Assembly: GCF_900102425.1 (NCBI RefSeq)
Contig: NZ_FNBT01000002.1
Coordinates: 310,001 to 374,000 of the forward strand
From: Blastococcus aurantiacus
GTDB lineage: Bacteria > Actinomycetota > Actinomycetes > Mycobacteriales > Geodermatophilaceae
Length of the DNA: 64,000 nt
Direction of reading: 5' to 3'
Shown in pieces: positions 12,574 to 43,764 of the stretch (position 1 is its first letter; every line of letters starts with the position of its first letter). The notes beneath the pieces are model-generated. The model saw only the letters and a list, made by a program, of their open reading frames with translations. It was not told where the DNA came from and ran no database searches. Position numbers and translations under genes: made by a program.

Positions 12574-12744
12574 ATGAGCGGCGAGGACAAGGCCAACAAC
12601 AAGGTCGAGGAGTTCGGCGGCAAGGCCAAGGAGGCCCTCGGCAACGCGACCGGCGACAAGGACCTCCAGGCGGCCGGCGAGAAGGACCAGACGAAGAGCA
12701 ACCTGAAGCAGGCCGGCGAGAAGGTCAAGGACGCCTTCAAGTAG
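12574..12744 (+). CDS. CsbD family stress protein
   Basis: 56 residues from ATG 12574 with ribosome-binding site GAGAGGAC upstream. Highly charged and hydrophilic, with the CsbD pattern of repeats: KVEEFGGKAKEALGNATGDK, then QAAGEKDQTKSNLKQAGEKV. CsbD proteins are small, abundant stress-response proteins of unknown mechanism, often controlled by general-stress sigma factors. It is monocistronic and followed by a perfect hairpin. Confidence 0.92.
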   Translation: MSGEDKANNKVEEFGGKAKEALGNATGDKDLQAAGEKDQTKSNLKQAGEKVKDAFK

Positions 12745-12758
12745 ACCCGCACCACGCA

Positions 12759-12797
12759 CGGCGGAGGCCGCAGCCCACCGGGGTGCGGCCTCCGCCG
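12759..12797 (+). terminator. csbD terminator hairpin
   Basis: CGGCGGAGGCCGCA pairs perfectly with TGCGGCCTCCGCCG across an 11-nt loop, starting 14 bp after the csbD stop. A following run of C and T is weakly U-rich. Typical of actinobacterial terminators. Confidence 0.75.
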
Positions 12798-12806
12798 CGT
12801 CTCCCT

Positions 12807-12850
12807 GCTTTTCCGCGGTAAAGCGGTCTGCTTTTCCGCGGAAAAGCAGA
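12807..12850. repeat. CCGCGG palindrome repeat, cluster 1 (2 units)
   Basis: Two tandem units of the type GCTTTTCCGCGGAAAAGC; CCGCGG cores at 12813 and 12836, exactly 23 bp apart. The second unit lies in a perfect 24-bp palindrome (12827-12850). The first has one mismatch (TAAAGC). The cluster starts 10 bp beyond the stop codon of the minus-strand DUF559 gene. Same family as 13799-13840 and 20498-20563. Confidence 0.9.
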
Positions 12851-12860
12851 TCAGGCACCG

Positions 12861-13745
12861 TCAGCCGGCGCCCGGTCGCGTCCGGAGCGCGGTGGCTATC
12901 CGGCTGACGACGTCGTCCATGTGACGCAGGTCGGCGGCCGAGAGCCGGATGACGCGCCAGCCGGCGGCGACCAGCGCGGCCAGGCGGGCGTCGTCCTTCA
13001 CGATCTGCAGCCCCTCGAAGTGGTGCTCGCCGTCGTACTCGACGATCAGCCGCTGCTCCGGCCAGGCCAGGTCGACGCGCGCCAGCCACGCGCCGTCCTC
13101 CACCACCTCGTACTGCAGGACGGGAGCCGGCAGCCCGCCGAGAGCGCACGCGACCCGGACCCAGGACTCGGGCGGCGACTCGCTCCGCCCGTCGACCAGG
13201 CCGAACGCCCGCCGCGCTCGTCTGGACCGCCATGCCGCCACCGGGCGCTCCTGCATCTGCTGCAGGGTGCCGACGTCCAGCAGACGCATCCGCACCATCG
13301 CGTCGAGCACCCCGACCGCCGTGCCGATCGGCTCGAGCGCCGCGACGTCCCATGCCGTCCTGCGGGGGCAGGTGTGGCGGATGCCCTCCTCGTCGATCAG
13401 CACGTCGGACGTCGGGACGTCGGCGGTGTGGACGCGCACCCCGCCCGGTCCTCTCCATTTCGTCCCCGGTGGGACGACGACCGTCACCGGGTCGCCGTAA
13501 CCGGGCGCCGGGACGCCCATCAGCGTGGCGGCGGACCGACCAGCCAGCACCGCTGATGCCGGCATCAACAGCGCGGCTGCACGGCAGCGCAGTCCGTGAT
13601 CCCGGGCCAGCGACGGATCGGCGTAGACGCCGTGCAGCACTCGGAGGTAGGGGCCGTTCTGCAGCTGGTGCCGGGTGAGCACCCCTTCGGAGACGGCGTG
13701 TGCCCCGATGAACACGCCGTGCAGTCCCAGGGACCGGAGATACAT
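12861..13745 (-). CDS. DUF559 (PD-(D/E)XK-like) protein with AbiEi-type N-terminus
   Basis: 294 residues from ATG 13745. The N-terminus (VLTRHQLQNGPYLRVLHGVY) resembles the winged-helix region of AbiEi-type antitoxins. The C-terminal 100 residues are a DUF559 nuclease-like domain: RVDLAWPEQRLIVEYDGEHH, then WRVIRLSAADL. DUF559 is related to very-short-patch-repair endonucleases, and the D/E-YDG-H residues are present. Such proteins are very common in actinobacteria as solitary genes, and function is undetermined. No toxin partner is adjacent, so a toxin-antitoxin role is not supported here. Confidence 0.85.
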   Translation of the reverse strand: MYLRSLGLHGVFIGAHAVSEGVLTRHQLQNGPYLRVLHGVYADPSLARDHGLRCRAAALLMPASAVLAGRSAATLMGVPAPGYGDPVTVVVPPGTKWRGPGGVRVHTADVPTSDVLIDEEGIRHTCPRRTAWDVAALEPIGTAVGVLDAMVRMRLLDVGTLQQMQERPVAAWRSRRARRAFGLVDGRSESPPESWVRVACALGGLPAPVLQYEVVEDGAWLARVDLAWPEQRLIVEYDGEHHFEGLQIVKDDARLAALVAAGWRVIRLSAADLRHMDDVVSRIATALRTRPGAG

Positions 13746-13798
13746 CCCGGCATGGTCGCCGTCCCGGCCCCTTCCGCGCTCCCGCCGTCCACAGCCCC

Positions 13799-13840
13799 GC
13801 TCTTCCGCGGAGAAGCGGGACGCTTTTCCGCGGTAAAGCG
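13799..13840. repeat. CCGCGG palindrome repeat, cluster 2 (2 units)
   Basis: Two units with CCGCGG cores at 13805 and 13828, again exactly 23 bp apart. The first unit is GCTCTTCCGCGGAGAAGC, the second CGCTTTTCCGCGGTAAAGCG. It ends 3 bp beyond the stop codon of the minus-strand NUDIX gene and lies upstream of the DUF559 gene start. Confidence 0.88.
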
Positions 13841-13843
13841 GGG

Positions 13844-14602
13844 TCAGGAGCGGGTGAGGAGGGTGCGGACGGCGGGGAGAAGAGGGCGGTCGGCGGCGAT
13901 CCAGTCGACGTCGTCCAGCTCGTCGGCCGTCACCCACCGCAGCGCGGCGTGCTCGTGGGCCACCGGCTCCCCCGACACGACCCGCGCCGCCCACACCCGC
14001 ATGGTCGAGGCCCCCCGCGGTCCGCCGCCGACGACGCCGTCGAGCGGAACCTCGCCGAGGAAGTCGCCCGGCTCGACGGTCGCGCCCAGCTCCTCGGCGC
14101 ACTCGCGCACCAGCGCCGCCAGCTGCGACTCGCCCGGCTCGACCTTGCCGCCCGGGAACTCCCAGCAGCCGTCGTACGGCCCGCCCGACCGCTGCGCCAC
14201 CAGCACCCGGCCGGCATCGACGAGCGCAGCCCCGACCACCTGCACGACCTCGTGCGCCCGGGCCTCCGCGGCAGCGACGTAGCCGGCCAGGTCCACCCGC
14301 ACCGCCCGCTGCAGCCGGCGGCGCAGCACCCGGTCGGCCACCCAGCCCAGCGGACCCCGCAGCCCGCTCCCGCCGTCGATCCGCTGGTCGACCAGCGTGC
14401 CGTCCGCGGTCGCGGTGAACCGGCGCGCGGAGGTCACCCGACCACGCCCGGTCGGGGATTCCGTGACGTGGACGTCGGAGTACGGGCGGTCCGACTCCAC
14501 CTCCCGCAGCGGCGTCGGCCAGGAGCGGCCCGGAGCGCGGGCGACGTCGAACGCGACGGTCAGCGGCGCCTCCACCAAGGTGGTGAAACGCAGGCTGAAC
14601 AC
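13844..14602 (-). CDS. SRPBCC-NUDIX fusion protein
   Basis: 252 residues from GTG 14602. Residues 1-120 look like a polyketide-cyclase/SRPBCC ligand-binding fold: RFTTLVEAPLTVAFDVARAP at the start, ending RVDLAGYVAAAEAR. Residues 125-252 are a NUDIX hydrolase of the MutT type with a complete Nudix box, from GGKVEPGES through RECAEELG, preceded by GCWEFPG. MutT-like enzymes hydrolyse oxidised nucleoside triphosphates. The N-terminal domain may add a second substrate or regulate the first. The domain order and absence of a stop between them are directly visible. Start codon choice is moderately certain. Confidence 0.82.
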   Translation of the reverse strand: MFSLRFTTLVEAPLTVAFDVARAPGRSWPTPLREVESDRPYSDVHVTESPTGRGRVTSARRFTATADGTLVDQRIDGGSGLRGPLGWVADRVLRRRLQRAVRVDLAGYVAAAEARAHEVVQVVGAALVDAGRVLVAQRSGGPYDGCWEFPGGKVEPGESQLAALVRECAEELGATVEPGDFLGEVPLDGVVGGGPRGASTMRVWAARVVSGEPVAHEHAALRWVTADELDDVDWIAADRPLLPAVRTLLTRS

Positions 14603-14638
14603 GCGGCCACTCTCCCAGACCACGGCAGGATGGCCCCC

Positions 14639-15100
14639 GTGCGCATCAACGCCCGGGTCGACTACGCCATCCGAGCCGTCGTCGAACTGGCCGCCGTCGC
14701 ACCGGACTCGATGACGGCCGATGCCATCGCCACCGCCCAGGGCATCCCCAGCAGGTTCCTGCAGGCAATCCTCACCGACCTGCAGCGGGCCCGCGTGGTC
14801 ACCAGCCAGCGGGGCCGGGACGGCGGCTACCGCCTCGGGCTGCCGGCCTCGGAGATCTCCATCGCGCGCATCATGCGGATCGAGCAGGGCTTCCTCGCCG
14901 AGGTGCACGGCCAGCGGCCCGAGGACGTGAGCTACCCGGGCGCGGCCGCCGCCCTCGCGCCGGTGTGGGTCGCGGCGCGCGAGGCCTACCGCCGGGTGCT
15001 CGAGGGCGTCACCGTCGCCGACGTCGTCGAGGGACGACTCCCCGAGCACGCCGCCGAGCTGGTCGCGATGGACGAGGCGTGGCGCTCGTTCGGCAGCTGA
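14639..15100 (+). CDS. Rrf2 family regulator, cysteine-free
   Basis: 153 residues from GTG 14639 (ATG nine bases upstream is an alternative). Rrf2 winged-helix: RINARVDYAIRAVVELAA, then ADAIATAQGIPSRFLQAIL and RGRDGGYRLG. I find no cysteine anywhere, so it cannot hold the Fe-S cluster of IscR/NsrR/RsrR. That resembles CymR, the cysteine-metabolism repressor that works with CysK. It sits just ahead of the leader peptide and sulfite reductase genes, so control of sulfur assimilation is a reasonable inference. Confidence 0.88.
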   Translation: MRINARVDYAIRAVVELAAVAPDSMTADAIATAQGIPSRFLQAILTDLQRARVVTSQRGRDGGYRLGLPASEISIARIMRIEQGFLAEVHGQRPEDVSYPGAAAALAPVWVAAREAYRRVLEGVTVADVVEGRLPEHAAELVAMDEAWRSFGS

Positions 15101-15161
15101 GGCGCCGAGGTGTGAGCCGCTCCACGGCACCGGCCCGGTGAGCTGTGGCACCATCATCGGT

Positions 15162-15248
15162 GTGACGGGCCGCGGCGTACTCCTCGTGGCGCGCTTGCAC
15201 ATCGATCTCGCGCGCGTCTCCAGCGCCGCCTGTCGCGCCTCGCGCTGA
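15162..15248 (+). CDS. Cysteine-type leader peptide upstream of sulfite reductase
   Basis: A 28-residue ORF, GTG 15162 to TGA 15248. It contains ARLHIDLARVSSAACRASR, matching the recurrent actinobacterial leader pattern R-x-H-x-D-x-x-R-x-S...C-R found ahead of sulfur genes. A single late cysteine followed by arginine fits a ribosome-stalling or attenuation role sensing cysteine supply. The gene for sulfite reductase starts 108 bp later. I could not define a clear terminator/antiterminator pair. Confidence 0.7.
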   Translation: MTGRGVLLVARLHIDLARVSSAACRASR

Positions 15249-15356
15249 CCCAGGTCCCTCCCCGCAGACATCCACTGCGACCCGAACCGGCAGCGCCCTC
15301 CCCAACCATCGCGGCCGCCGCCGTGCCGGGGCCAGGCGCAGGAAGAAGTACCGAAC

Positions 15357-17030
15357 GTGACGACCCCCACCCGCACGAGCAACCGCCCCAAGCGCGGCGA
15401 GGGCCAGTGGGCTCTGGGCTACCGGGAGCCGCTCAACCCGAACGAGCGGATGAAGAAGGACTCCGACGGCCTCGAGGTACGCCAGCGGATCATCGACATC
15501 TACTCGAAGAGCGGGTTCGACAGCATCGACCCCGGTGACCTCCGCGGCCGCATGCGGTGGATGGGGCTGTACACCCAGCGGGCGCAGGGCATCCCCGGCG
15601 GCAAGACCGCCGTGCTGGAGCCCGAGGAGCTCGAGGACAAGTACTTCATGATGCGGGCCCGCATCGACGGCGGGCAGCTGACCAGCGACGCCCTGCGGGT
15701 CATCGGCGGCATCAGCACCGACTTCGGCCGCGACGTCGCCGACGTCACCGACCGGCAGAACGTCCAGTACCACTGGATCCGCATCGAGGACGTCCCCGAG
15801 ATATGGCGGCGGCTCGAGTCCGTGGGCCTCAGCACGATGGAGGCGTGCGGCGACGTGCCGCGCGTCATGCTCGGCTGCCCGCTGGCCGGGATCCTGGAGG
15901 ACGAGATCCTCGACGCCACCGACGTCATCGCCGAGACCGTGGCGAAGTACGTCGGCAACCCCGAGTTCAGCAACCTCCCGCGCAAGTGGAAGACCTCGAT
16001 GTCGGGGTGCGTGGACCACTGCACCGAGCCCGAGATCGACGACGTCTCCTTCGTGGGGGTCGTGAACGAGGCCGGCGAGGCCGGCTACGACCTCTGGGTC
16101 GGCGGCGGGCTGTCCACCAACCCGATGTTCGCCCAGCGTGTCGGCGTCTTCGTCCGTCCCGACCAGGTGACCGAGGTCTGGGCCGCCTGCACCAGCGTCT
16201 TCCGCGACTACGGCTACCGCCGCCAGCGCAACCGCGCCCGCATCAAGTTCCTCATCGCCGACTGGGGCCCCGAGAAGTTCCGCCAGGTCCTGCAGGACGA
16301 GTACCTGCACGCCGCCCTGCCGGACGGCCCCGCCCCCGCGCCGGCCAAGCACGACCAGCGTGACCACGTCGGCGTCAGCCGGCAGAAGGACGGCCTCAAC
16401 GCCGTCGGCTTCGCCCTGCGCACCGGACGGATCACCGGCTCGCTGCTCACCACGATCGCGAACCTGGCCGACGAGTACGGGCAGGGCCGGATCCGGACGA
16501 CGACGCAGCAGAAGCTGGTCATCCTCGACGTCCCGGACGAGAAGGTGGAGGCGCTGGTCGCCGCGCTCGCCGAGCACGACCTGCAGGTGCGCCCGAGCGC
16601 CTTCCGCCGCGGCACGATGGCCTGCACCGGCCTGGAGTTCTGCAAGCTGGCGATCGTCGAGACCAAGCAGCACGCGCAGGACCTCTACGCCGAGCTGGAG
16701 AAGCGGCTGCCGGACTTCGACGTCCCGATCGGGATCAACGTCAACGGCTGCCCGAACAGCTGCGCCCGCTTCCAGACCGCCGACATCGGGTTCAAGGGCT
16801 CGATGGTCAAGGACGACAACGGCGAGATGGTCGAGGGCTTCCAGGTGCACCTGGGCGGCCATCTGGGCGTGGAGGCCACCTTCGGCCGCAAGTTCCGCGG
16901 CCACAAGGTGACCAAGGCCGAGACGGCCGACTACTGCGAGCGGGTGCTGCGCGGTTTCCTGGACCGCCGCACGCCCGGTGAGTCCTTCGCCCACTACGTC
17001 TCGCGCGCCGAGGAGGACTGGCTCCTGTGA
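15357..17030 (+). CDS. Ferredoxin-dependent assimilatory sulfite reductase
   Basis: 557 residues from GTG 15357. Two-fold repeated siroheme reductase with cluster cysteines in ACTGLEFCKLA and NGCPNSCARF (about residues 420-465). The first repeat has GDVPRVMLGCPL and the redox-active Tyr/Cys neighbourhood MGLYTQRAQ. It resembles mycobacterial SirA (NirA), which reduces sulfite to sulfide with ferredoxin electrons. The next gene overlaps by 4 bp, and APS reductase follows, giving a minimal APS-to-sulfide module. A nitrite reductase reading is less likely given the cysH neighbour. Confidence 0.92.
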   Translation: MTTPTRTSNRPKRGEGQWALGYREPLNPNERMKKDSDGLEVRQRIIDIYSKSGFDSIDPGDLRGRMRWMGLYTQRAQGIPGGKTAVLEPEELEDKYFMMRARIDGGQLTSDALRVIGGISTDFGRDVADVTDRQNVQYHWIRIEDVPEIWRRLESVGLSTMEACGDVPRVMLGCPLAGILEDEILDATDVIAETVAKYVGNPEFSNLPRKWKTSMSGCVDHCTEPEIDDVSFVGVVNEAGEAGYDLWVGGGLSTNPMFAQRVGVFVRPDQVTEVWAACTSVFRDYGYRRQRNRARIKFLIADWGPEKFRQVLQDEYLHAALPDGPAPAPAKHDQRDHVGVSRQKDGLNAVGFALRTGRITGSLLTTIANLADEYGQGRIRTTTQQKLVILDVPDEKVEALVAALAEHDLQVRPSAFRRGTMACTGLEFCKLAIVETKQHAQDLYAELEKRLPDFDVPIGINVNGCPNSCARFQTADIGFKGSMVKDDNGEMVEGFQVHLGGHLGVEATFGRKFRGHKVTKAETADYCERVLRGFLDRRTPGESFAHYVSRAEEDWLL

Positions 17031-17200
17031 GCGAGGAGGCGGGCGCGGGAAGGACCCGGCAGTTGCCGGTGTTCCACTGCCCGTACTGCGGGGACGAGGA
17101 CCTCACCCCGTACGAGGGTGAATCGGCCGACGGCTGGCGTTGCAGCGCCTGCCTCCGGGCGTTCTCCGTCCGTCTGATCGCAACGGGAGTGCAGCACTGA
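17027..17200 (+). CDS. Small zinc-ribbon protein in sulfur operon
   Basis: 57 residues from GTG 17027, which overlaps the sulfite reductase stop in GTGA; its own TGA overlaps the cysH start (TGATG). Two CxxC pairs, FHCPYCGDEDL and WRCSACLRAF, form a zinc- or iron-binding ribbon. It is translationally locked between sulfite reductase and APS reductase, so a role in that pathway (assembly, electron transfer or regulation) is likely. No biochemical function is known to me. Confidence 0.85.
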   Translation: MSEEAGAGRTRQLPVFHCPYCGDEDLTPYEGESADGWRCSACLRAFSVRLIATGVQH

Positions 17201-17910
17201 TGACGACCGCCATCGCAGCGACGCCGGAGCAGGCCGCCGAGGCCGACGCCCGTTTCGGTGCCATCGCCGACCCGGTCGAGCAGGCGCTGGCCGCCCTGGA
17301 GTGGGCCGGGGAGACCTTCGGCGACCAGTTCGCGATCACCTCGTCCATGGCCGACGGCCTGCTCGCCCACCTGGCGAGCCGGGCGATCCCCGGCGTGCAC
17401 GTCATCTTCCTCGACACCGGCTTCCACTTCGCCGAGACGATCGGCACGCGGGACTGGATCACCGGGGTGCTCCCCGTGACCCTGGTCAACGTCACCGCGC
17501 CCCAGACGCCGGCCGAGCAGGAGCTCTCCTTCGGGCCGAAGCTCTACGAGCGCGACCCCGACCTGTGCTGCTCGATGCGCAAGGTGGAGCCGCTGGCCAA
17601 GACGCTGTCCGGCTACTCCGCCTGGGGCTCGGGCGTGCGCCGCGACGAGTCCGCGACCCGCGCCGACACGAAGCTGGTCGACTGGGACGCCAAGCGCGGC
17701 ATGGTGAAGGTCAACCCGATCGCCGCCTGGACCCAGGCGGACGTCGACGCCTACATCGCCGAGCACCAGGTGCCGGTGAACCCGCTGTTCGAGCTGGGCT
17801 ACGGCTCGATCGGCTGCTCGCCCTGCACCCGGCCGGTGGCACCCGGCGAGGACCCGCGCGCCGGACGCTGGGCGGGCTCGACCAAGACGGAGTGCGGCCT
17901 GCACACCTGA
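17200..17910 (+). CDS. cysH: Adenylylsulfate (APS/PAPS) reductase
   Basis: 236 residues from ATG 17200. It has the 4Fe-4S cysteines of APS-type reductases (LCCSMRK and GCSPCTRP) and the catalytic cysteine in TECGLH at the C-terminus. The substrate loop is ITSSMADGLLAHLA, and FLDTGFHFAET is the usual conserved segment. The cluster cysteines indicate APS as substrate, giving sulfite for the reductase encoded upstream. The start overlaps the preceding stop by one base. Confidence 0.94.
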   Translation: MTTAIAATPEQAAEADARFGAIADPVEQALAALEWAGETFGDQFAITSSMADGLLAHLASRAIPGVHVIFLDTGFHFAETIGTRDWITGVLPVTLVNVTAPQTPAEQELSFGPKLYERDPDLCCSMRKVEPLAKTLSGYSAWGSGVRRDESATRADTKLVDWDAKRGMVKVNPIAAWTQADVDAYIAEHQVPVNPLFELGYGSIGCSPCTRPVAPGEDPRAGRWAGSTKTECGLHT

Positions 17911-17921
17911 GCGAGGCCCCC

Positions 17922-18212
17922 GTGCCGCGTCCTCCGCGACTCTCCCCCGACGACGTCGCCCGCGCGCTCACCGAGCTGCCGCTGTGGTCCGGGGATGCCG
18001 ACGGCCTGCGGCGCTCCGTGGAGCTGCCCGGCTTCCGGGACGCCGTCGCCGCGATCGTCGCCATCGCGGACGTCGCCGAGGCGATGGACCACCACCCCGA
18101 CGTCGACCTGCGATGGCGGACGCTGCACCTGTCGCTGGTCAGCCACTCCGAGGGTGGCGTGAGCGAGTTGGATCTCGAGCTGGCGCGCCGCATCGACGCA
18201 CTGCTCCCCTGA
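17922..18212 (+). CDS. 4a-hydroxytetrahydrobiopterin dehydratase (PCD/DCoH) family
   Basis: 96 residues from GTG 17922, 11 bp after cysH. The conserved active-site motif MDHHPDVDLRWRTLHLSL is present, and the length is right for a single PCD domain. PCD recycles 4a-hydroxypterins, and in bacteria lacking phenylalanine hydroxylase some members assist molybdopterin or other pathways. Position after cysH may be coincidental or mean cotranscription. A bidirectional terminator follows. Confidence 0.88.
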   Translation: MPRPPRLSPDDVARALTELPLWSGDADGLRRSVELPGFRDAVAAIVAIADVAEAMDHHPDVDLRWRTLHLSLVSHSEGGVSELDLELARRIDALLP

Positions 18213-18216
18213 CGCG

Positions 18217-18253
18217 ACGCGAGCCCCACACCGGTCCGGTGCGGGGCTCGCGT
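18217..18253. terminator. Bidirectional terminator between PCD gene and phoX
   Basis: ACGCGAGCCCC pairs with GGGGCTCGCGT, extended by CACCGG/CCGGTG around a one-base loop with one mismatch. It sits 4 bp after the PCD stop and 8 bp beyond the stop of the convergent phosphatase gene, so it can serve both. Confidence 0.8.
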
Positions 18254-18261
18254 GCATGGCG

Positions 18262-20382
18262 TCAGCTGCCGACGCGGCCGCCGTCCTGGCGGTAGGCGAC
18301 GGCGACGCTCGGCCGGGGGAACGGATTGACCCGGCGCCGGTCCGGCCACGTGCTCGACGGCGCGTCGACCGTGGAGCCGTCGGTCTCCCCCGGGTGCTGC
18401 ACCGCGACGAACACCGACCGCGCGTCCCGGGTGATCAGCGGACCGCTGCACTCGGCCCCGAACGGCACCGTGAGGAACCGCTTCACCTGGCCGCGCTCGC
18501 GCCCCTCGGTGGGGACGGCGTAGAGGCCGTCGTTGCTGCCGGGGAGGTTGCTCGGGCTGCCGTCGGTCGAGATCCACAGGTTGCCGGCGGGGTCGAACTC
18601 GACGTTGTCGGGGCAGGAGATCGCGCTGACCTTGGTCTTGTCGAAGCCGGCGAAGTAGGTGCTCGGGTCGGACGGGTCACCGGCCACCAGGAAGATCCGC
18701 CAGGAGAACCGCTCGCCCGCGGCTCCTGCGGTCTCCTTCCACTCGACGATGTGCCCGTGCCGGTTCCTGCTGCGCGGGTTGGCCTCGTCCGCCGCGGGGT
18801 TCGTCCCGACACCTCGGTTGGTGTTGTTGGTCAGCGCCGCGTACACCCGCCCGTTGACCGGATTGACCTGGATGTCCTCCGGCCGGTCCATCTTCGTGGG
18901 CGCCCATTCGGGGCCGCGTGCGCTCAGCTCGTCGGCGGCCAGGCGGGTGAAGGTGAGCACCCAGTCGACCTTCCGACCCGGAACCATCGACGCGCCGTTC
19001 TTCACCAGCGGGATCCACCGGCCGGTGCCGTCGAACTCGCCGTCCGAGGGCAGCGTCCCTGTGCCGTCGATCTCGGCCGCCGAGTCGCCGGTGAACTGCG
19101 CGACGTAGAGGTCGCCCTCGTCGAGCAGGGTCAGGTTGTGCGCGCGGGAGGCCCGGTCGTGTCCCCGCCGGAACTTCTTCTTCGAGACGAACTTGTAGAT
19201 GTAGTCGAAGCGCTCGTCGTCACCGGAGTAGGCGACGACGCGCCCGTCCTCGGCGATGCGCACGTCGGCGCCCTCGTGCTTGAACCGGCCCATGGCCGTG
19301 CGCTTCTTCGGCCGCGACGTCGGGTCGTAGGGGTCGACCTCCACGACCCAGCCGAAGCGGTTGACCTCGTTCGGCTCGGCGGCGACGTCGAAGCGCGGGT
19401 CCACCTCGTGCCACCGGCGTCCGGCCGCCGCGCTGGTGGAGATGCCGTACCGGGCGAGGCGCCGCTCGGGGTCGGCCACCGGACCGGCCGCCGGGCCGAA
19501 GTACTGGTTGAAGTTCTCTTCGCCGTGCAGCGTGGTCCCCCACGGCGTCTGACCGCCGGCGCAGTTGTTGAGCGTGCCGAGAACGGTGCGCCCGCGCGGG
19601 TCGGCCTTGGTCCTGAGGTACTCCGAGCCGGCCGCGGGGCCGGTGAACTCCATGGGGGTGTCCGCGGTGATCCGGCGGTTGCGGCGGCCGTTGCGGACGG
19701 GGCGCCACTCGCCGGTGTTGCCGTGCCGCCGGACCTCCACCACGGAGATCCCGTGGGCCATCATCGCGATCCGCTTCTGCTGCGGAGTCGTCGGCGAGGA
19801 CTCGGTCGCGACGCCGGAGAACATCAGCTGTTCGTTGGTGTACTCGTGGTTGACGACGAGCAGGGCCTCACGGTCCTTGTCGTCCAGCGGCAGCAGGCCG
19901 ATGTAGTCGCAGTTGTAGCCGAACTGCTTGGCCTGGGCCTCCGGGGTCTGCCGGGCGATGTCGAACTCCGGCGCGCCGGCCACGACGGGGTCGCCCCACC
20001 GCATGACCACCGAGTAGCGGTACCCCTGCGCGGTGACCAGCTCGTCCAGCGTGTTCTGCTCGACCGGCCGGAACGTCAGCGCCCCACCCCGGGTGCTCCC
20101 CCCGGGCCGGCCCGACGGACCGCGCTCGTTCGCGGCGGCCGGGGCCAGAGGCCCGGCGGCCACGATGAGCGCACCGGCGCCGGCCGCCTTGAGCATGTTG
20201 CGCCGGCTGAAGGCCGTCTGTACGACGTCGGCGAACGTGGGGTTGTCGCTCTGGTTCGGGATGGCGGAGTCGCAGGCGTTGCCGCACTTGTAGAAACACG
20301 TCACGTGGCTGCGGTTGCCGTGCCGCTTGAGGTCGAGGAAGGGCAGCAGCGCGCGACGGCGCGGCTCCTGGAGGTCGGTCAT
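18262..20382 (-). CDS. PhoX family phosphatase (Tat-exported)
   Basis: 706 residues from ATG 20382 with GAGGG upstream. The N-terminus has TCFYKCGNAC (residues 28-37) before an internal twin-arginine signal SRRNMLKAAGAG (residues 59-70), as in PhoX/DUF839 proteins. The rest is the six-bladed propeller: SPDNVEF-type blades, WISTDGSPSNLPG, and MEFTGPAAGS. PhoX enzymes are calcium/iron phosphatases that release phosphate from organic esters outside the membrane. Three repeat palindromes lie about 115 bp upstream of the start. Confidence 0.9.
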   Translation of the reverse strand: MTDLQEPRRRALLPFLDLKRHGNRSHVTCFYKCGNACDSAIPNQSDNPTFADVVQTAFSRRNMLKAAGAGALIVAAGPLAPAAANERGPSGRPGGSTRGGALTFRPVEQNTLDELVTAQGYRYSVVMRWGDPVVAGAPEFDIARQTPEAQAKQFGYNCDYIGLLPLDDKDREALLVVNHEYTNEQLMFSGVATESSPTTPQQKRIAMMAHGISVVEVRRHGNTGEWRPVRNGRRNRRITADTPMEFTGPAAGSEYLRTKADPRGRTVLGTLNNCAGGQTPWGTTLHGEENFNQYFGPAAGPVADPERRLARYGISTSAAAGRRWHEVDPRFDVAAEPNEVNRFGWVVEVDPYDPTSRPKKRTAMGRFKHEGADVRIAEDGRVVAYSGDDERFDYIYKFVSKKKFRRGHDRASRAHNLTLLDEGDLYVAQFTGDSAAEIDGTGTLPSDGEFDGTGRWIPLVKNGASMVPGRKVDWVLTFTRLAADELSARGPEWAPTKMDRPEDIQVNPVNGRVYAALTNNTNRGVGTNPAADEANPRSRNRHGHIVEWKETAGAAGERFSWRIFLVAGDPSDPSTYFAGFDKTKVSAISCPDNVEFDPAGNLWISTDGSPSNLPGSNDGLYAVPTEGRERGQVKRFLTVPFGAECSGPLITRDARSVFVAVQHPGETDGSTVDAPSSTWPDRRRVNPFPRPSVAVAYRQDGGRVGS

Positions 20383-20497
20383 CGGATCCCTCTGGTCGGA
20401 ACGGGCGAGACCCGAGGGACGCTAGGAAGTCCAGGACGCGGCTGGATGGACGCCGGGTGAACGCTGGGAGAGCGCAGGGACACGGCTCGCCCCGTCC

Positions 20498-20563
20498 GCT
20501 TTTCCGCGGAGAAGCGGTCCGCTTTTCCGCGGAGAAGCGGTCTGCTTTTCCGCGGAAAAGCAG
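20498..20563. repeat. CCGCGG palindrome repeat, cluster 3 (3 units)
   Basis: Three tandem units with CCGCGG cores at 20504, 20527 and 20550, exactly 23 bp apart. Units 1 and 2 are CCGCTTTTCCGCGGAGAAGC; unit 3 is the perfect form TGCTTTTCCGCGGAAAAGCA. It ends 2 bp beyond the stop codon of the minus-strand DUF3037 gene and lies upstream of phoX. Confidence 0.92.
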
Positions 20564-20565
20564 GG

Positions 20566-20961
20566 TCAGGCGGTGACGGGCAGGACCAGCAGGCGGAGGA
20601 GCCGGTCGGCCTCGGCGTCGGGGTCGGCGGTCAGACCGGTGTGCACCGGTCCGGGCTGGATGACGGTGCTGCGCGGCGCGGTCAGCCAGCGGAACCGCGA
20701 CCCGAGCGCCTCCCGCCCGGCCGCCCCGGCCCCGGGGTCCGCGGCGCACACGTCGGTCGCGGCCTGCAGCGCGCGGCCGATCGCCGCCGCGTCGGCCGTG
20801 GCGTCCAGGGCGCGCAGCCGCTCGGGGTCCAGGTGCACGCGGGCACCGAGGTAGTCCCGCTGCCGGCAGTAGACGAGGACGCCGGCGTTGAGGAACTCGC
20901 CCCGCTCGACCCGCGGCACGACGCGCAGCACGGCGTATTCGAAGGTGTCCCGACCCGTCAT
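20566..20961 (-). CDS. DUF3037 family protein
   Basis: 131 residues from ATG 20961, overlapping the HipA-like stop in ATGA. It starts with FEYAVLRVVPRVERGEFLNA and continues GVLVYCRQRDYLGARV, the DUF3037 hallmark. Function is unknown. It is repeatedly found with a HipA-like kinase gene, as here, so the two products probably act together. The stop is directly followed by repeat cluster 3. Confidence 0.88.
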   Translation of the reverse strand: MTGRDTFEYAVLRVVPRVERGEFLNAGVLVYCRQRDYLGARVHLDPERLRALDATADAAAIGRALQAATDVCAADPGAGAAGREALGSRFRWLTAPRSTVIQPGPVHTGLTADPDAEADRLLRLLVLPVTA

Positions 20962-43617: not shown

Positions 43618-43764
43618 GTAGAACTCCTCGTGGGTCGGGTCGGGTCGGGTCGGCCGGAGCGGCCGGCCTGCAGTGGATCAGGGCGGTGGAGCGGTGGACA
43701 CTTCTCCACCGGATGTTCGGGCCGTCGTCATCCGATCGACACCTCGGAGCGTCACGCTCCTGGG

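Follow-up and report, generated by a model that had tools for sequence, protein, structure and literature searches.

Phased palindrome arrays behind stop codons in Blastococcus aurantiacus, probable REP-like dispersed elements of gene ends

We analysed a 64,000-nucleotide stretch of the Blastococcus aurantiacus genome (contig NZ_FNBT01000002.1, positions 310,001 to 374,000; hereafter the window), in which three short arrays of palindromic units with CCGCGG cores lie close behind the stop codons of DUF559, NUDIX, and DUF3037 genes. Arrays of this kind recur at many gene ends of the same genome, and we consider them probable dispersed elements that resemble repetitive extragenic palindromes (REPs).

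Palindrome arrays in the window

The three arrays lie where the original prediction had placed them, with cores exactly 23 bp apart in each (Table 1). Searching the window with CTTTNCCGCGGAAAAG at up to three mismatches returned 14 matches, which are seven places read on both strands, against 0.45 expected from 100 shuffles (largest shuffle count, 3). Tandem Repeats Finder reported arrays 2 and 3 with a period of 23, and array 1 is absent from its list. The minus-strand stop lies 13, 4, and 4 nt from the final base of the 18-mer in arrays 1, 2, and 3; the distances of 10, 3, and 2 given originally differ because the unit edges had been drawn slightly wider. The accompanying claim that the arrays always follow a minus-strand stop was drawn from these three clusters only, and array 1 also lies 62 bp behind the plus-strand CsbD stop. 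A long GC-rich hairpin, an ordinary terminator-like stem-loop separate from array 1, follows CsbD; segment 12745-12806 folds at -42.8 kcal/mol (z -5.2).

Table 1. Arrays, flanking genes, and other features of the window
Feature	Position	Strand	Basis
Array 1, two palindromic units 23 bp apart (12807-12824, 12830-12847)	12807-12847		pattern matches; folds as single hairpin
Array 2, a two-unit array flanked by the NUDIX stop and the DUF559 start (13799-13816, 13822-13839)	13799-13839		pattern matches, tandem repeat, fold
Array 3, a three-unit array flanked by the DUF3037 stop and the PhoX start (20498-20515, 20521-20538, 20544-20561)	20498-20561		pattern matches, tandem repeat, fold
CsbD-like gene, convergent neighbour of array 1	12574-12744	+	PF05532, E 9e-15
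Hairpin behind CsbD	12759-12797	+	
DUF559 gene, flanked by arrays 1 and 2	12861-13745	-	PF04480, E 2e-7
NUDIX gene	13844-14602	-	PF00293, E 3e-21
PhoX-like phosphatase gene, start 115 bp from array 3	18262-20382	-	PF05787, E 6e-161
DUF3037 gene	20566-20961	-	PF11236, E 7e-44
GGGTC pentamer, 4.4 error-free copies	43632-43653		

Genome-wide census and placement

The draft genome that contains the window (G000, 4.16 Mb) has 79 places matching CTTTTCCGCGGAAAAG with up to two mismatches, compared with 1 for the reversed-pattern control. We fetched the DNA around these places (301,191 bases including the window, covering 75 of the 79) and called genes with a purpose-written, simple codon-usage gene finder. 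The fetched DNA contains 82 units in 37 arrays, 29 of two units and eight of three, and neighbouring units are 23 bp apart in 44 of 45 cases (40 bp in the remaining one).

Not one of the 37 arrays lies wholly within a predicted gene, and 23 bp is the spacing in 44 of 45 cases, so neither the random intragenic copies nor the variable spacing that the original prediction had named as refuting a functional element was seen in G000; the single overlap with a predicted gene end is at L069. Counting this overlap, a stop codon lies within 15 nt of the array in 32 of 37 cases. Seventeen arrays occupy convergent gaps, 18 co-directional gaps (11 on the plus and seven on the minus strand), and one a divergent gap, with one more at a contig edge; the minus-strand rule therefore does not extend to the genome. 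Compared with the other gene pairs at the same loci, the orientable arrays are enriched in convergent gaps (17/36 versus 35/248, p = 1.6e-5) and depleted from divergent ones (1/36 versus 50/248, p = 0.005). Within co-directional gaps of G000 and its nearest relative in the tree, G001, 27 of 28 arrays lie nearer to the stop of the preceding gene than to the start of the following one. Eight convergent gaps are nearly filled by the element, with stops 47-51 bp apart and at most 5 bp on each side of the 41-bp array.

The adjoining genes have little in common. Pfam scans of 10 of the 70 neighbours gave differing families except for two AraC-type regulators, and we rejected a single neighbour family. 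DUF559 was likewise rejected as a general partner, with eight matches in the genome and, by coordinates, one of them next to an array.

Array anatomy and folding

Each unit is GCTTTTCCGCGGAAAAGC, a perfect or near-perfect palindrome. The array consensus is YCY-GCTTTTCCGCGGAAAAGC-RGNCY-GCTTTTCCGCGGAAAAGC-RGR, about 47 bp long and symmetric around its midpoint, and third and fourth units occur in some arrays. Strong conservation stops 3 bp beyond the 18-mers, at YCY on the left and RGR on the right, and the five-base spacers read RGNCY in 34 of 44. Because of these edges and this spacer, a two-unit array approximates one long palindrome centred on the spacer. The idealised 47-base array folds into a 22-bp hairpin (-39.7 kcal/mol), and arrays 1, 2, and 3 of the window fold better than shuffles on the plus (z -7.2, -7.1, and -7.8) and minus strand (z -5.4, -6.3, and -6.0). 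The fixed spacing would follow if the pair acts as one hairpin.

One half of the unit had originally been described as conserved and the other as variable, a pattern that belongs rather to the array: in two-unit arrays, conservation is seen in the outer arms (GCTTTT in 22/28, AAAAGC in 22/28) and variation in the inner ones. Pairing across the array beats shuffles for outer (p = 0.003) and inner arms (p = 0.001) in 45 two-unit arrays from two genomes, values that overstate the evidence because the copies share descent and are not independent. Within the unit, the L2-R2 pairing by itself gave p = 0.04 in G000.

Distribution and other palindrome families

Among 23 genomes of the genus, units number 79 in G000, 74 in G001, 35 each in G004 and G018, 11 in G007, four in G016, and three in G009, and the remaining 16 have none or one each. 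Across 112 genomes of the family, which we take to be the Geodermatophilaceae, no genome outside the genus exceeds nine units. Of 31 named stretches that contain the two-unit pattern, 27 are from Blastococcus (sp. TF02-09, sp. CCUG 61487, and saxobsidens); the others are single matches in an actinobacterial metagenome-assembled genome, Lachnoclostridium, Eisenbergiella, and Oscillibacter, the last three of which (L018, L028, and L046) are presumably chance or unrelated. The exact 23-bp phase holds in G000 and G001 (34/34 spacings in the latter) and not throughout the genus: spacings of 24 or 25 bp are also present among the copies listed for G018 and G007, and G016 has one of 24 bp. A stretch of G001 (L219:1-285) carries two CCGCGG units 77 bp apart and then two CTTTCGGTACCGAAA units, and the sequence ahead of them presumably represents a 5S rRNA gene end, which it resembles.

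Other genomes carry palindromes with different cores. A GTGCAC family (CGNTTNGTGCACNAANCG, up to one mismatch) has 30 matches in G014, 22 in G069, 19 in G012, 15 in G015, 14 in G010, nine in G000, and seven in G007, and at most four in the other 105 of the 112 genomes (controls, 0 to 2). A CTTTCGG..CCGAAAG family has 100 in G064, 62 in G070, 55 in G010, 50 in G009, 44 in G067, 39 in G019, 38 in G022, 32 in G127, and 26 in G124, and at most 16 elsewhere (controls, 0 or 1). Among the matches listed, the spacing between neighbouring GTGCAC units is often 23-24 bp, but G010 and two places of G000 have 41 bp; for CTTTCGG units it is often 33-34 bp. Units resembling CGGTTCGTGCACGAACCG stand at an exact 41-bp spacing in G000 (C14:136484-136542 and 145227-145285) and G010 (C1:9166-9306) and are perhaps a further tandem palindrome family. 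More than one family occurs within a single genome in G007, G001, and G010, and the families do not track the species tree, which covers 22 species and uses up to seven proteins.

Gene ends shared between families

We scanned 60 stretches from relatives (424,856 bases) at laxer thresholds for units at the ten gene ends marked by G000 arrays. These gene ends make up 4.0% of the bases and hold 35/36 CCGCGG, 21/25 GTGCAC, and 7/15 CTTTCGG units, fractions to be read in light of the fact that all three families reside at gene ends, the slots being an estimated third of gene ends in these stretches, that arrays contain several units, and that the species are related. The reversed control gave eight GTGCAC matches and none for the other two families.

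The locus of arrays 1 and 2 is the clearest example. Of 21 genomes, ten were found to have DUF559 between csbD and NUDIX, and all ten have palindromes at both ends of this gene. The palindromes are CCGCGG in G000, G001, G004, G018, and G009 (diverged in G009 and recognised by eye only), GTGCAC in G007, G012, G014, and G015, and GGCGCC in G019. In the 11 genomes in which no DUF559 was found, the scan gave no palindrome behind NUDIX; by eye, G016 has one diverged CCGCGG unit, G008 has TTCCGCGGAA about 100 bp further on, G010 has a hairpin of another kind, and the gene end in G006 is unreadable. For the arrays travelling with DUF559 at this locus, inheritance is the sole account we reached, and we could not explain the association further.

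In G014 and G015, GTGCAC palindromes contain the TAG stop of the neighbouring gene (L118, L189, and L190), including the stop of an ADH reading frame in both genomes. Many other array junctions hold still different hairpins in relatives (L129-L143 and L177-L191), for example GTTGATCATCGTC..GACGATGATCAAC in several species, GCCGAGTGNGCACTTG in G006 and G011, and GGCATAGGAGGCTATGC in G008 with a variant in G016.

Empty sites and turnover

Arrays occupy sites that have almost no intergenic DNA in several relatives, which in part accounts for their nearness to stop codons. At the convergent junction C18:313286, element alone makes up the 47 bp between the stops in G000; in relatives the stops are 3 (G002), 7 (G018), 11 (G003), 15 (G019), and 15 bp (G021) apart, and most other relatives hold a different, longer hairpin-like sequence there. 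At C18:285604, the gap measures 48 bp in G000, 2 bp in G006 and G009, and 4 bp in G012 and G013, and CCGCGG arrays are present in G004, G018, and G016 and a single unit in G019.

Between G000 and G001 we assigned 23 orthologous array pairs, which involve 22 of the 26 arrays of G001 that entered the comparison, one of them paired with two arrays of G000; five pairs were assigned from one flank only. Flanks are about 90% identical, and unit number differs in 12 of the 23 pairs. Identity of the array ends is 0.834 for orthologous and 0.823 for shuffled partners (p = 0.055), and over the full array the ten pairs with two units on each side reach 0.857 versus 0.834 shuffled (p = 0.014). A looser comparison, in which unrelated arrays were given the better of two orientations, returned 0.890 for orthologous and unrelated arrays alike. 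Judged from these alignments, orthologous arrays appear to retain a weak trace of common descent. In 10 of 23 pairs, one of the two 20-bp segments just outside the array edges matches (at least 70%, ungapped), and in no pair do both; a shift of a few bases would account for much of this mismatch, and independent insertion at the orthologous junctions is possible.

Insertion sequences in and beside arrays

Arrays are landing sites for insertion sequences (ISs). Several G001 contigs terminate within ISs located in arrays. The ends of an IS30-like element, GGGTTCAAGG and GGATTTAACT, lie in G001 spacers 7 bp behind a unit, in one fixed register, at all six distinct places found (L175, L176, L205, L213, L214, and L217), a 6/6 count that is biased because the G001 stretches were chosen for their units, so that copies elsewhere would be missed. 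L035 is the same place as L205, and a text match at L132 was excluded as it has no adjoining unit and a different continuation. A 38-residue end of the element has 67-77% identity to plasmid features annotated as IS30 family transposase in four of the eight rows listed, the other four being unannotated; Pfam and NCBIfam gave no match to the short pieces. Two further IS ends, one weakly IS110-like (NCBIfam E 0.12) and one ISL3-like (E 0.00027), directly adjoin G001 arrays (L202:1-135 and the last 130 bases of L210).

ISs are known to target such sequences elsewhere. REP elements are reported insertion targets of five IS families, IS3, IS110, IS4, IS256, and IS5 (PMC1525189), and IS30 of Escherichia coli has a hot spot for insertion that is nearly palindromic (PMC9333248).

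Interpretation and alternatives

The observations point to a fast-changing family of mobile-type gene-end elements. We think it probable that they are REP-like dispersed elements in which the array is the working unit, and which have spread into the gaps behind stops, where they are either tolerated or possibly serve as bidirectional 3'-end hairpins. The REP-like half of the original proposal, a mobile REP-like element or a 3'-end signal, is borne out by the copies, their gene-end placement and patchiness, the empty sites, and the ISs in arrays. Arrays would enter the narrow gap behind stop codons and stay there, and in other species palindromes of different sequence and comparable architecture would have spread, often to these very gene ends; the copying enzyme would not be a Y1/RAYT transposase detectable in these genomes. 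Either strand of an array can fold into a hairpin of about 20 bp, so that between convergent genes the array could act as a 3'-end barrier or terminator for both; judged by placement, this would be the most economical function.

Several results weigh against this interpretation. Gain at the empty sites is inferred, and some of these sites could be losses. By eye, in what was no formal test, no target-site duplication was seen in the array flanks. The GTAG or CGTC tag of REPs is absent, the edges being YCY/RGR in nearly all 74 flanks, and the unit has no head/tail polarity. The Y1_Tnp domain (PF01797) of the REP-associated tyrosine transposase (RAYT) was found in none of the 23 genus genomes, whereas 5 of 14 control genomes were positive, and we rejected a RAYT/Y1 transposase as the spreader. 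Arms show no covariation within units (p = 0.88 and 0.19, two genomes together), and no arm-pairing test is significant in G001 alone, the long-palindrome signal being carried by G000; support for the compensating slack proposed originally is accordingly moderate, with pairing across the array and not within the unit. Folding gives no preference to the sense strand, which was better in eight, worse than the antisense strand in 18, and equal in two of 28 arrays (mean +1.5 kcal/mol; Wilcoxon p = 0.10). This counts against a constraint on the transcript strand, that is, a purely RNA-level one, and selection on the sense RNA strand is unsupported.

The same strand result bears on the idea that the arrays are native bidirectional terminators or RNA 3'-stabilisers, selected for one sequence and not mobile. 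Gene-end placement and the convergent bias fit this idea, as do the strong hairpins that either strand can form (z -5.4 to -7.8 in the three window arrays) and the unrelated hairpins that occupy the same junctions in other species. Yet a shared 41-bp sequence at 37 unrelated gene ends requires copying rather than point mutation, the junctions are empty in relatives, and the arrays lack the form of an intrinsic terminator, a GC stem followed by a U-tract: no U-tract lies behind the hairpin in the array sequences, where T-tracts sit within the stem. Rfam returned no match at gathering score in the 64-kb window. We regard this explanation as quite unlikely, and the 3'-end-signal half of the original proposal finds no support in the strand counts, the Rfam result, or the hairpin sequence with its missing U-tract. 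It is decidedly improbable that the arrays bind a chromosomal or uptake protein and were spread and made uniform by a cellular machinery with a preference for DNA bearing them, as with DNA uptake sequences (DUS). Dialect-like species differences, conserved palindromic cores, the regular phase, and the lack of strand preference would suit such sites, but copy number is only tens, compared with the thousands of DUS, and G007, G001, and G010 each have more than one family. PMC3630211 adds a point to either side: the dialects of DUS are likewise found as inverted pairs linked to terminators, but DUS often lie inside genes and no array does so wholly.

The conserved outer ends and variable interior, and the IS30-like ends at a single spacer position (6/6 in DNA chosen for its units), recall a non-autonomous miniature inverted-repeat transposable element of a DDE transposase such as the IS30-like one, or else a sequence that an element of this kind targets or leaves behind as a scar. 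The IS ends GGGTTCAAGG and GGATTTAACT are, however, unlike the array ends, the IS interrupts arrays instead of mobilising them, and no target duplication was seen by eye, which makes this very unlikely. Chance or an artefact of a GC-rich genome has a negligible probability and no point in its support, with 14 matches versus 0.45 expected in the window and 79 versus 1 in the genome.

Going beyond REP-like spread, gene ends might be lasting slots at which the site is inherited, while the palindrome is swapped genome-wide for the current dialect of the species by a trans-acting system of changing specificity. This reading draws on the DUF559 locus, where ten of ten genomes have palindromes at both ends in three unrelated dialects (G009 by eye), and on orthologous arrays of two close species that are scarcely more alike than shuffled ones; we hold it tentatively and think it unlikely. 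If dispersed REP-like elements are the correct explanation, Geodermatophilaceae hold several sequence-unrelated, similarly built palindrome families that spread to gene ends without a REP transposase. RAYT-free spread of REP-like elements would become a testable question in culturable bacteria, as would the possibility that gene-end hairpins persist because of their structure and that their sequence is free to change. The IS30-like register in the spacer would offer a marker for insertion hot spots.

Comparison with known systems

The arrays share with REPs and bacterial interspersed mosaic elements (PMC3733652, PMC2817692) the short palindrome in many intergenic copies, the placement in convergent and co-directional and rarely in divergent gaps (17, 18, and 1 of 36), pairs able to form one large stem-loop, and families that differ by species. 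They differ in having no GTAG/CGTC tag, a symmetric unit without head or tail, a fixed 23-bp phase in G000, and no Y1/RAYT in the 23 genus genomes. Because the defining tag and transposase were tested and found absent, we do not file the family as REP. Escherichia coli REPs also lie near stops, with 260/496 within 15 nt in an earlier study and 446/4,072 by RepRanger (PMC12306157), compared with 32/37 arrays here.

Like the DUS dialects of Neisseriaceae, which also occur as inverted pairs at terminators (PMC3630211), the palindromes are species-specific; unlike DUS, they number in the tens, have unrelated cores, lie wholly in genes in none of the arrays examined, and can occur as more than one family in a genome. 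As with REPs targeted by ISs (PMC1525189), the IS occupies a single fixed position within the repeat, although the element is IS30-like and actinobacterial and belongs to none of the five families of that work. Mitochondrial repetitive hairpin and double-hairpin elements are similarly mobile-looking, but organellar. Searches of open-licence papers yielded no description of these repeats and no occurrence of the unit's inner 14 letters, although descriptions may exist elsewhere. The novel features are the symmetry and phasing of the unit, the presence within one bacterial family of several similarly built but unrelated dialects, and the gene ends that dialects share.

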